This document shows positions 10,184-13,439 of a DNA stretch of 64,000 bases, piece after piece. Under the pieces are notes generated by a model. That model was not told the DNA's origin, made no database searches, and was given only the letters and a program-made list of their open reading frames with translations. The DNA is from Archangium violaceum (GTDB taxonomy: Bacteria; Myxococcota; Myxococcia; Myxococcales; Myxococcaceae), in assembly GCF_016859125.1 (NCBI RefSeq), contig NZ_CP069338.1, positions 806,001 through 870,000 of the forward strand. Direction: 5' to 3'. Numbering within the stretch: the first letter of the stretch is position 1; every line of letters starts with the position of its first letter. A program made the translations under genes and the position numbers.

Positions 10184-10828
10184 TCACAGGGCGGGCAGCA
10201 GGATGACGATGAGCACGTCCCACAGGGAGTGACTCACCCACGAGGCCACGAGGCTGCGGCGCCACTCGGCGAGCAGCCCCCAGGCGAGCGACGTGGGGAA
10301 CGCCGCGAGCGCCAGCAGCGGCTCACGGAAGGCGAGCAGCGCGAGGCTCGACAGTACCGCCGCCACCACCACGCACCCCACCCGCCCGAGCCTCGGCCGC
10401 AGCGCCTGTTGCACCACACCCCGCCAGAAGAGCTCCTCGGCCGGAGCGATGAACAGCGCCAGCGCCAGCGCCTCTCCGAGCGAGCCCGTTCCGAACGTCG
10501 CGTAGATGGCCGCCAGGGGCTCGCAGAACAGCTCCGAGAAGCCGCCACACATCGCCCACAGCACCGCCCGAGCGCCCACGTACAGCACCCCCGCGAGGGC
10601 CACGCCCCACAACACATCCGCGCGTCTCGGAACGAGCCACCGCTGTCCCGCCTCGCCCAGCGCCTTCCACGAGAGCGCGTTCCACACCGCGCAGTAGAGC
10701 GTGGCCCACAGGAAGAAGCGCGGTGGGTGCACGTGCACCAGCGCGGTCCACGCAATCACCGCCACCCCGCTGGCCATGAGCCAACCCCGCTCCGCCAACC
10801 CGGACGATGTCACGGCGGAGGAGGTCAT
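10184..10828 (-). CDS. CPBP family (CAAX-like) intramembrane metalloprotease
   Basis: A 214-residue polytopic protein. It has the CPBP/Abi motif EExxxR in PAEELFWRGVVQQAL and the later His motif SWVSHSLWDVL, which in this family form the intramembrane active site. The substrate is unknown; relatives act in prenyl-protein processing, bacteriocin immunity or stress signalling. Start ATG 10828 overlaps the stop of the upstream FAD oxidoreductase (ATGA), implying translational coupling and a shared operon. A longer upstream reading frame exists but is the antisense shadow of that gene. Confidence 0.85.
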   Translation of the reverse strand: MTSSAVTSSGLAERGWLMASGVAVIAWTALVHVHPPRFFLWATLYCAVWNALSWKALGEAGQRWLVPRRADVLWGVALAGVLYVGARAVLWAMCGGFSELFCEPLAAIYATFGTGSLGEALALALFIAPAEELFWRGVVQQALRPRLGRVGCVVVAAVLSSLALLAFREPLLALAAFPTSLAWGLLAEWRRSLVASWVSHSLWDVLIVILLPAL

Positions 10829-12081
10829 GGCAGCGGCAGCTCCCGGTCCCGCAGCAGGGCCTCCGCCGCTCGCCGCCCCGAGACCATGGCGCCCTCGATG
10901 GAGCCATTCTCCCGGTAGTCCCCACAGACATACAGCCCCGGGGACAGCCGGACCTGCCGGTGGGGCTCCGCGAAGGACTCGGGCGGCTGCGCCGGCAGCG
11001 CGTGCGGAATCTCGTACGTGCGCAGGTGCCGCCACTTCGCCACCGCTCCGCCGAACCACTCCGTGAGCTGCTCGCGCACTCGCGCCTCCAGCGTCTCCGG
11101 GTCCTCCTCCGTCTCCAACACCGACACCGACACCAGCGCCTGCCCCTCAGGCGCGTACGCGGGCGCCACCTCGCTCATCACCGCGAGGTTGTTCACCGGC
11201 CCCCTCCCCTCCCCGTTCAGCACCAGGTAGGGCCCTCGCACCGGCGGCTCCGGCGCGGCGAAGTACAGACACGTCACCGCGTTCATCCTCCGCGGCAGCA
11301 TGCCGGGCAGCAGCTCCTCCGCCGCGGGAGCATCCGTCGCCACCACCACCGCGTCGGCCTCCTCCCGCTCGCCCGAGATCAACCGCACCCGGTGGCCCCA
11401 CACCTCCTCCACCGGCGCGTTCAGCTTCACCGCGCCAACGGGCAGCTTCGCGGCGAGTTGCGAGGAGAGCGCTCCCATCCCCTTCGCCGGCACCGCCGTG
11501 GCCCCCGTGGCGAACATCCGGAAGACGAACTCCAACACCCGGCTGGAGGTGCGCAGCTCCTTCTCCAGGAAGATGCCCGCGAAGAAGGGGCGCAGGAAGG
11601 CCTCCACCATCTCCTCGGAGAAGCCCACGTCCCGCAGGTACTCCCGCGAGGTCTTCTGCCTCCGGAGGAGCACGTCCTCCACCGAGCCCGCGAGCGACTG
11701 CTGGCGCAAATCGAGAATGTGCAACTTGTCCGTGAACGAGCCCACGCGGTTGAAGGCATGGGCCGCGGCCTGCAGGGGCCGGCGGAACGGATCCGCCACC
11801 TTGTGCAAACACCCCTCGCGCCACACCAGCGCCCCCGGGAAGAAGCGTTGGAAGTCGAGCGCGTCATAGTCCAGCCACCGCCGCGGCTCGGGATACGCGG
11901 TGAGGAACACCTGGAAGCCCCGGTCCAGCTGGAACCCCTCCACCACGTCCGTGCGCACCCGGCCGCCCACCCCGTCGCTCGCCTCCAGCACCCGCACCTT
12001 CACCTTCGCCTGGTGCAACAGCCTCGCGCACGTCAACCCGGCCAACCCCGCCCCCACCACGATGACGTTCGGACGCACCAC
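10825..12081 (-). CDS. FAD-dependent amine oxidase/phytoene desaturase-like oxidoreductase
   Basis: A 418-residue flavoprotein with an N-terminal dinucleotide-binding fold (VVGAGLAGLTCARLL, then an acidic residue in VRVLEASDGVGGRVRTD). The C-terminal FAD motif is SPGLYVCGDYRENGSIEGAM. The family covers protoporphyrinogen oxidase-like, amine oxidase and carotenoid desaturase-like enzymes, and the substrate cannot be read from the sequence. The start is GTG 12081, with GGAGGG seven bases upstream. It is the first gene of a two-gene unit with the CPBP protease and is divergent from the trp operon. Confidence 0.85.
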   Translation of the reverse strand: MVRPNVIVVGAGLAGLTCARLLHQAKVKVRVLEASDGVGGRVRTDVVEGFQLDRGFQVFLTAYPEPRRWLDYDALDFQRFFPGALVWREGCLHKVADPFRRPLQAAAHAFNRVGSFTDKLHILDLRQQSLAGSVEDVLLRRQKTSREYLRDVGFSEEMVEAFLRPFFAGIFLEKELRTSSRVLEFVFRMFATGATAVPAKGMGALSSQLAAKLPVGAVKLNAPVEEVWGHRVRLISGEREEADAVVVATDAPAAEELLPGMLPRRMNAVTCLYFAAPEPPVRGPYLVLNGEGRGPVNNLAVMSEVAPAYAPEGQALVSVSVLETEEDPETLEARVREQLTEWFGGAVAKWRHLRTYEIPHALPAQPPESFAEPHRQVRLSPGLYVCGDYRENGSIEGAMVSGRRAAEALLRDRELPLP

Positions 12082-12232
12082 GCCGCACCCTCCGTAAAAG
12101 TGAAAAGTCCCGTACTACCTTGCTTCCCGGAGACCGCCCAGCCACACTTGCCGGGAATAAGGAGGGAAGTGGACACCTTTCTTCCTGCAAGGCGTCCCGC
12201 TCTTCCCTAATAAAAGCAGCGCCTCGAACCGA

Positions 12233-12251
12233 CCGCCTCTTCCCCAGGCGG
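12233..12251. other. Hairpin in the trp operon leader
   Basis: CCGCCT (12233-12238) and AGGCGG (12246-12251) make a perfect 6-bp stem with a 7-base loop, 26 bp before the first start codon of the trp unit. There is no U-run after it. It could be an RNA leader structure or the arms of an operator; I see no full attenuator. Confidence 0.35.
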
Positions 12252-12277
12252 CGGAATACTTCGGAGAGTCAAGAGCC

Positions 12278-12418
12278 ATGTTGATCGTGATGCGCCCGGA
12301 TGCGACGGCCCAGGAAATCGAGCGTGTGAACGACGAGATCCGCCGTCACGGCTGGCGACCGCACACGAGCCCCGGAGAGACGCGCGCGGCCATCGGCATC
12401 ACCGACAACGCGGGGTAG
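12278..12418 (+). CDS. 46-codon protein: front half of a DAHP synthase (AroF type) ferredoxin-like regulatory domain
   Basis: ATG 12278 (GGAG about 11 bases upstream) opens a 46-residue frame ending TAG at 12416. Motifs MLIVMRPDATAQEIERVNDE and RPHTSPGETRAAIGI match the N-terminus of type I-beta DAHP synthases, which begin with a roughly 65-residue ferredoxin-like domain that mediates feedback inhibition. Only the beta-alpha-beta-beta part is present; the catalytic barrel is absent. The stop is 4 bp before the trpD start, so the two are translated together. It contains a single Trp codon, so it does not look like a classical trp leader peptide. It is either a remnant of an aroF that once sat in the trp operon or a retained stand-alone regulatory microprotein. 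Confidence 0.7.
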   Translation: MLIVMRPDATAQEIERVNDEIRRHGWRPHTSPGETRAAIGITDNAG

Positions 12419-12422
12419 GCAC

Positions 12423-13439
12423 ATGACACTCAAGGAAGCGCTGGGTAGGGTCGTTGGCCGGCGCGACTTGACCCGCGAGGAGATGGCCCTGGTGATGGGC
12501 CAGATGCTCGCGGGAGAAGCGACGCCTGCCCAGGTAGGCGCCTTCGCGGTCGCGTTGCGCATGAAGGGTGAGACCGAGGACGAGATCCTCGGAGCGGCGG
12601 AGGCCATGCGGGCCTGCGCCACGCGCATCCACCCCCAGGCCCAGGTGGTGTTGGATACCTGCGGCACGGGCGGAGACGGCGCGCACACCTTCAACATCTC
12701 CACGGCCGTGGCCTTCGTGGCCGCGGGCGCGGGCGTCACGGTGGCCAAGCACGGCAACCGGGCGGTGTCCTCGCGGTGTGGCAGCTCGGACGTGCTCGCC
12801 GCGCTGGGCGTCGCCATGGACCGCTCTCACGAGCAGGTGACGCGGGATGTGGATCTCCACGGCGTGGGCTTCCTCTTCGCGCCCTCGCACCACAGCGCCC
12901 TGCGGCACGTGGCGCCGGCCCGGCGGGAGATTGGCCTGCACACCCTCTTCAACCTGCTGGGGCCCCTGACCAACCCGGCGGGCGCGTGCTACCAGCTGCT
13001 CGGCACCTTCGCGGGTGAGCGGCTGGAGCAGACGGCGCGTGTCCTGTCGCGGCTGGGCAGCAAGCGCGCCTGGGTGGTGCACGGCCGCGATGGGCTGGAC
13101 GAGCTCTCCCCGTGCACGGCCTCGGACGTGGCGGAGCTGCGTGAGGACGGCTCGGTGCGGACCTTCACCGTCACCCCCGAGGACGCGGGACTGGAGCGGG
13201 TACCGCCCGAGTCCATCGTCGGAGGGGACGTGGAGGACAACGCCCGGCGCCTCAAGGCGCTGCTCGCGGGTGAGCGCTCCGGCGTGCGCACGGCGGTGCT
13301 GCTCAACGCCGCGGCCGCCCTGGTCGTGGTGGGCAAGGCGGCGAACCTCAAGGAAGGAGTGCTGCGCGCGGTGGAGTCCATCGACTCCGGCGCCGCGGCG
13401 GCCAAACTGGAAGCCCTCGTGAAGGGAGGTCCGGCATGA
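12423..13439 (+). CDS. trpD: Anthranilate phosphoribosyltransferase
   Basis: A 338-residue enzyme that joins anthranilate to PRPP in tryptophan synthesis. It has the PRPP/Mg glycine motif LDTCGTGGDGAHTFN near residue 80 and the conserved KHGNRAVSSRCGSSD. Length is normal. ATG 12423 comes 4 bp after the 46-codon AroF-like gene. The stop overlaps trpC by four bases (ATGA). The partner anthranilate synthase genes trpEG are not upstream as in many bacteria but lie at 30.7-32.8 kb on the other strand. Confidence 0.97.
   Translation: MTLKEALGRVVGRRDLTREEMALVMGQMLAGEATPAQVGAFAVALRMKGETEDEILGAAEAMRACATRIHPQAQVVLDTCGTGGDGAHTFNISTAVAFVAAGAGVTVAKHGNRAVSSRCGSSDVLAALGVAMDRSHEQVTRDVDLHGVGFLFAPSHHSALRHVAPARREIGLHTLFNLLGPLTNPAGACYQLLGTFAGERLEQTARVLSRLGSKRAWVVHGRDGLDELSPCTASDVAELREDGSVRTFTVTPEDAGLERVPPESIVGGDVEDNARRLKALLAGERSGVRTAVLLNAAAALVVVGKAANLKEGVLRAVESIDSGAAAAKLEALVKGGPA

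Follow-up and report, generated by a model that had tools for sequence, protein, structure and literature searches.

A short open reading frame of 46 codons lies directly before trpD in the 64,000-nucleotide window of Archangium violaceum DNA analysed here (the whole stretch, to which all positions refer). This mini-ORF runs from an ATG at 12278 to a TAG stop (12278-12418, forward strand). It is followed by trpD, the first enzyme gene of trpDCFBA (12423-13439, forward strand; TIGR01245, E 7.2e-117), which starts at 12423, 4 nt past the stop. The 46-codon gene with its own start that an earlier note had placed 4 bp before trpD is thus found as described. Its assignment to the N-terminal part of the ferredoxin-like domain of DAHP synthase was likewise borne out, with residues 1-41 matching positions 1-41 of the 67 positions of PF18152 (DAHP_snth_FXD; Pfam, E 2.7e-10, 40.4 bits, cut-off 27), while residues 1-42 gave a match to the Thermotoga DAHP synthase 1rzm that is weak on its own (phmmer, E 0.13). 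Since 72 ORFs of at least 40 aa overlap the 9-kb stretch, ORF length alone is no evidence, and the evidence for the mini-ORF is homology and position. The good codon bias cited in the earlier note carries little weight: third-position G+C across 12 intact aroF genes stands at 0.85 (codons 2-21) and 0.72 (codons 22-41), compared with 0.84-1.00 in other blocks.

Three parts of the mini-ORF can be distinguished. Codons 1-29 (12278-12364, forward strand) correspond to the conserved 5' end of the ancestral aroF, with 5-8 differences and no gaps between genera in the 84 nt of codons 2-29, codons 30-44 (12365-12409, forward strand) are aroF-derived, variable and partly deleted in relatives (two-piece map onto AroF), and the last two codons with the stop (12410-12418, forward strand) are homologous to the aroF end (10-genome alignment and two-piece map). 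A Shine-Dalgarno-like CGGAGA (12262-12267, forward strand), the old aroF ribosome-binding site, is located 10 nt before the ORF and pairs with the anti-Shine-Dalgarno sequence at -6.6 kcal/mol, a value identical in 6/6 mini-ORFs. Farther upstream, by-eye alignment of 20 upstream regions revealed a promoter-like block (TTGCTT, 17 nt, CACACT; 12120-12148, forward strand) whose form is kept before intact aroF and mini-ORFs alike, again by eye; a sigma-70 consensus scan gave no site there. Around this block lies an inverted repeat, TTCCCGG...CCGGGAA (12124-12157), a possible operator, of which several mini-ORF relatives carry shorter ATTCCC...GGGAAT versions. The next gene upstream encodes a divergent FAD oxidoreductase (10825-12081, reverse strand), HpnE-like but below the curated cut-off, and not trpG, which had been proposed as the neighbour.

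Full-length aroF in relatives and loss of its catalytic core

We surveyed 96 genomes of the family, Hyalangium versicolor (G089) and Citreicoccus inhibens (G021) among them. In 71 trpD was found at E <= 1e-80, and in 65 of these it was at least 77% identical. The start of aroF was matched within an open frame of at least 351 codons in 52/65 genomes, the mini-ORF was found in 6/65 (G000, the source genome, and G003, G005, G032, G070 and G076), and 7/65 gave no aroF-start match at E <= 0.001 (G001, G002, G004, G008, G015, G064 and G071). Five further aroF-start matches at 45-52% identity, in genomes that carry a distant trpD, were left out. The G032 mini-ORF sits inside a 449-codon open frame, which makes open-frame length alone unsafe, and 28 of the 52 aroF genes were therefore read. 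All of these encode 341 or 347 aa, and the trpD ATG follows the aroF stop by 2-6 nt in 27/28 genomes, the exception being G012, where the search word found no trpD start. For the remaining 24 genomes, 1,029-1,032 nt separate the aroF and trpD starts (measured by hand), which fits a 341-codon gene. The one intact protein scanned, that of G027, is a B. subtilis-type, i.e. type I-beta, DAHP synthase (NCBIfam).

The operon in relatives is thus aroF-trpDCFBA, headed by a type I-beta aroF directly before trpD. The FAD oxidoreductase gene, which marks the same locus in relatives, is upstream and divergent wherever the regions read cover it (tblastn, 21 regions). Synteny together with full-length aroF in relatives identifies the mini-ORF as a descendant of aroF at this locus. 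The suggested aroF remnant therefore holds in that aroF did stand directly before trpD, but not in its placement next to trpG, as no trpG adjoins. Elsewhere in the operon, extra DNA was observed between trpD and trpC in G086 (ca. 2.1 kb; L106 7982-10123), and trpF and trpB are separated by ca. 1.1 kb in G034 (L069 7634-8795).

A tree of joined TrpD, TrpF, TrpB and TrpA from 22 genomes placed 11 core-less genomes on a single branch (support 100/99; G000-G005, G008, G015, G032, G070 and G076), and the catalytic core is absent in all 11 as read. The branch includes Archangium lansinium (G001) and A. violaceum (G004) as well as G032, G070, G076 and G015, which form one genus (g11) that we take to be Cystobacter with Melittangium; the clade would thus comprise Archangium and a sister genus, probably Cystobacter, with neighbours. 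The other two genomes lacking an aroF-start match, G064 and G071, presumably Stigmatella, adjoin G019, which has a full aroF, and lie away from the 11-genome branch, so the core was lost at least twice. For the 11-genome clade, one loss at its base is the simplest reading, based on parsimony. According to the earlier note, a full-length aroF in close relatives with truncation in this strain alone, or an ORF that is not conserved, would mark it as only a remnant. Full aroF is indeed present in outgroups, but the strain is not alone and the ORF is conserved in two genera. Truncation in one strain alone was rejected, the core being missing from 11/11 clade genomes.

The six mini-ORFs were mapped onto AroF by a gap-free two-piece fit. 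They consist of N-terminal codons joined in frame to the last 2-22 aroF codons, with different joints: AroF 1-44 + 340-341 in G000, 1-39 + 340-341 in G003, 1-29 + 320-341 in G005, 1-45 + 334-341 in G032 (by eye without 41-43), 1-37 + 330-341 in G070 and 1-40 + 336-341 in G076 (by eye without 34-43 and 325-335). Their lengths are 46, 41, 51, 53, 49 and 46 codons, respectively, and none keeps any of AroF codons 48-319. The C-terminal part amounts to only two codons in G000 and G003, while the 22-codon tail of G005 fits AroF 320-341 with a score of 54.8 compared with 17.2 at the next place. As judged by alignment, aroF's own stop is reached in frame by 6/6 mini-ORFs, 2-6 nt before trpD (4, 4, 4, 2, 6 and 2 nt). 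Because all six structures differ, at least five length changes must have occurred, and the frame would be kept in all by chance with a probability of (1/3)^5 to (1/3)^6, about 0.004 to 0.0014. The number of independent in-frame deletions behind this estimate is a parsimony count.

Two short remnants were left out of the frame count. G015 retains an ATG with a 16-codon frame that reaches 4 nt into trpD, the old stop being gone; by eye it holds an aroF-tail piece, which the two-piece fit does not confirm (score 10.4), and the by-eye reading of G064 is likewise without confirmation from the fit (score 35.5). The start codon has been lost in 4/11 clade genomes (G001, G002, G004 and G008), all with trpD still present. 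In G001, G002 and G004 all that is left of aroF is its last codons, and G002 and G004 now have its former ribosome-binding site 13 nt ahead of trpD. Codon 26 (12353-12355), a Trp codon in intact aroF, has stayed one in 6/6 mini-ORFs. The G064 and G015 remnants, both short, lack it and each contain one Trp codon elsewhere. This pattern is probably chance.

Conservation of the remnant

A comparison of the two genera over codons 2-29 shows 5-8 differences in 84 sites (6-9.5%) and no gaps. Over the same comparison, 37-51% of aligned sites differ in the adjacent 150-nt 5' UTR, with gaps, and 0.30-0.35 of synonymous sites differ in trpD. Codons 2-29 require 13 changes on the six-genome tree, compared with a mean of 22.1 for 28-codon trpD windows, of which 10/309 need as few. 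They thus evolve no faster than those segments of a functioning enzyme gene that are under the strongest constraint. What has been kept is the first 29 codons and the reading frame.

The Stigmatella-like pair, representing the second loss, serves as a control. Its remnants before trpD (L213 3452-3574 and L214 upstream of 3555) differ at 22 of 123 sites (18%), with a 2-nt shift in G071, against a background of trpD pS 0.15 and a UTR difference of 8 of 149. One remnant is open, its 38 codons sharing a frame with the aroF tail as judged by eye, and the other is frameshifted, so the frame is kept in 1/2. Judging from these sequences, the Stigmatella-like remnant decays. Provided that a single loss at its base removed the core from the 11-genome clade, the remnant there would have been under selection; repeated recent core loss would weaken this inference.

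Residues D13, R24 and P28 are fixed in 28/28 intact AroF and vary among the mini-ORFs, indicating that AroF-specific constraint is relaxed. Changes at codon positions 1, 2 and 3 number 0, 6 and 7 (p 0.10 for third positions), and by hand count 6 synonymous and 7 non-synonymous changes, set against 19:65 sites, point to amino-acid selection at p 0.05; with 13 changes, too few for the purpose, selection on protein and on nucleotides is not separable. Synonymous divergence between genera is 0.15-0.26 in the mini-ORFs, and intact aroF pairs at similar trpD distance show a mean of 0.41-0.42 with a very wide range (0.05-0.74). An old RNA element in the 5' end of intact aroF was considered and rejected, as the synonymous constraint looked for there was not found: codons 2-29 stand at 0.256 compared with a window mean of 0.20 across 27 genomes, at 0.180 compared with 0.183 in 12 chosen genomes that are not of the Hyalangium/Stigmatella type, and at 0.382 compared with 0.183 in 5 genomes that are.

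Possible roles of the remnant

It is just probable, in our judgement, that the mini-ORF is an aroF remnant kept as a translated leader ORF that loads ribosomes onto trpD. The ancestral aroF headed aroF-trpDCFBA, and the mini-ORF is its 5' end. The clade ancestor would have lost the catalytic core, presumably through one deletion that kept the frame, plausibly after other DAHP synthases had made AroF dispensable. The source genome contains a type I-alpha DAHP synthase (TIGR00034) and two class II DAHP synthase matches, one of which was scanned and confirmed; a second strong PF00793 match is KdsA-like by eye. The class II copy at G000:C1:9461970-9463289 (L218) has counterparts in 11/11 clade genomes, which form a group of their own (SH-aLRT 99, quick method) when compared with 11 other class II copies picked from matches. 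This copy may have replaced AroF. No clear counterpart of it was found in the Stigmatella-like pair.

After the loss, selection would have maintained three pieces of aroF: its start site, its first 30-46 codons and, a few nt from trpD, its final codons with their stop. Conservation and frame suggest that the mini-ORF is translated as a short leader. Ribosomes would load at the old aroF start and pass to trpD by termination-reinitiation, so that the head of the operon stays translated. Later deletions are seen where the frame is kept or a Shine-Dalgarno-like site is left beside trpD, and would be tolerated for that reason; in the four leaderless genomes (G001, G002, G004 and G008) such a site lies 5-13 nt before trpD. 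In-frame leaders in 6/11 genomes, an overlapping ORF in G015 and Shine-Dalgarno-like sites in the other four are as expected if trpD needs delivered ribosomes. The spacing of 2-6 nt in intact aroF-trpD resembles that of translationally coupled genes, and the mini-ORFs of the clade combine a stop a few nt from trpD with a frame kept through length changes (6/6).

Several observations count against ribosome delivery. The own Shine-Dalgarno sequence of trpD is fair in the mini-ORF genomes (-5.9 to -6.6 kcal/mol) and at least 1 kcal/mol stronger than in 4/5 Corallococcus/Myxococcus-type intact genomes, and the trpD start is not more buried there (0.37-0.51 unpaired compared with 0.23-0.49 in four intact genomes). 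Four of the 11 clade genomes do without the start codon, G000 and G003 retain a C-terminal part of just two codons, and after the second loss one remnant of two has kept its frame. The weak point of the leader model is that coupling alone does not demand 28 almost fixed codons, although early initiation-favouring codons or an RNA element could add to their conservation.

The main competing explanation, possible but doubtful, is that the conserved 87 nt work at the RNA or DNA level and not via translation, the frame being incidental, for example as an 85-nt hairpin (codons 3-31) setting mRNA stability or translation, or as a binding site in the transcribed region. Few synonymous changes are seen (3 changes at 10 fourfold sites compared with 109 at 180 in trpD), and a long imperfect hairpin with a GNRA loop (12284-12369) is predicted in 6/6 mini-ORFs, with z of -1.6 to -3.2 relative to synonymous shuffles. 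Drawing codons from the trp genes reduces this to a range of -0.9 to -2.7, and the stability of the 311-nt region as a whole is ordinary (z 0.40). The same hairpin is predicted in 4/6 intact genes folded (not in G018 and G089), with z from +0.5 to -3.8 relative to synonymous shuffles, and synonymous sites are not depressed in that segment of intact aroF. Variable columns comprise 6/27 unpaired and 4/57 paired positions, 3 of those 4 keeping the pair (p 0.07), but covariation is weak: 91.6% of cells are paired compared with 91.1% in shuffles, two-sided change occurs in 2 pairs with 77 of 500 shuffles as high, and one hairpin pair is broken in 3/6 mini-ORFs. Rfam gave no match in 11900-12600, and an RNA element leaves six of six in frame unexplained. 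A combination of the two ideas, namely a cis-regulator born from a gutted aroF in which mini-ORF translation and the 85-nt hairpin have jointly set trpD expression since the base of the clade, appears marginally more doubtful still.

We consider it unlikely that the stub is a plain remnant, with the core lost repeatedly and recently or the stub simply undecayed and its conservation an echo of the former enzyme. Codons 1-29 are gone in 5/11 clade genomes, Stigmatella-like remnants do decay, AroF-invariant residues are now variable and within-genus pN/pS is high in several pairs, all as a plain remnant would have it. Yet this would require many independent recent core losses, given a core absent in 11/11 genomes and codons 48-319 gone in 6/6, whereas an old loss would give ca. 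30% or more difference between genera in codons 2-29 instead of the 6-9.5% seen. Still less credible, indeed very improbable, is a functional microprotein whose peptide binds DAHP synthase, TrpD or an aromatic amino acid. The peptide is partly conserved, as reflected in the p of 0.05 given above, and excerpts of PMC5036795 describe TrpM, a small protein modulating Trp synthesis elsewhere. Against this, residues invariant in intact AroF vary, the stretch past residue 29 is different in every genome, and a search of G000 at E <= 0.1 gave no second PF18152 (FXD) protein. A half-domain acting as sensor or partner of a DAHP synthase, as the earlier note had proposed, is unlikely because D13, R24 and P28 vary, that search of G000 gave no other FXD protein and part of the half is deleted in relatives, with G005 keeping residues 1-29 only and G076, by eye, lacking 34-43. 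In a search of 195 genomes of the phylum for other half-FXD ORFs, only G151 among the matches listed ended before position 60, and it was rejected because it is an intact aroF that an assembly gap (183 N) interrupts.

Attenuators of the trpL type contain tandem Trp codons followed by a terminator/antiterminator. The mini-ORF shares with such leader peptides the form of a short ORF heading the trp operon, but it has one Trp codon and abuts trpD. A trp attenuator, against which the earlier note had also argued, was rejected, as neither a terminator-like site in 12000-12600 nor an Rfam family in 11900-12600 was found. With type I-beta DAHP synthase (Thermotoga maritima 1rzm) the mini-ORF has in common N-terminal residues 1-41, and with the aroF of relatives its start site and operon position; it lacks the catalytic (beta/alpha)8 domain and a complete PF18152, having 46 instead of 341 residues. 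A recent review sets out, in the excerpted text of PMC12548453, a proposed class of short ORFs whose sole task is to "deliver" ribosomes to the coupled gene downstream, along with E. coli trpE-trpD translational coupling. The mini-ORF resembles these in being a short ORF with its stop a few nt from the next start and its frame kept; it differs from those in the excerpt in being the head of a gutted enzyme gene with 29 conserved codons, and coupling here is inferred. TrpM/TrpX of Streptomyces trpCXBA is likewise a small ORF in a trp locus, set apart, by its description in the excerpts of PMC5036795, by its other place in the operon and by an enzyme-gene origin not being stated there. No description of this ORF was recognised in the open-licence literature, which does not prove its absence from print.

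In conclusion, the mini-ORF is a real remnant, selected in this clade if the core was lost at its base, and most likely a gene reduced to a leader ORF and not a regulatory half-domain. A short ORF abutting a downstream gene is a known arrangement; new are its origin from an enzyme gene and the evidence of long retention. This suggests a way in which leader ORFs may originate, where an enzyme is discarded while ribosome entry at the first gene is still required by the operon, so that only start and frame would be selected. The family provides a natural series of this process: six in-frame miniatures and one shorter stub, four genomes in which the loss is complete, and a control lineage in decay. 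A further caution is that a short "pseudogene" stub heading an operon may have a function.
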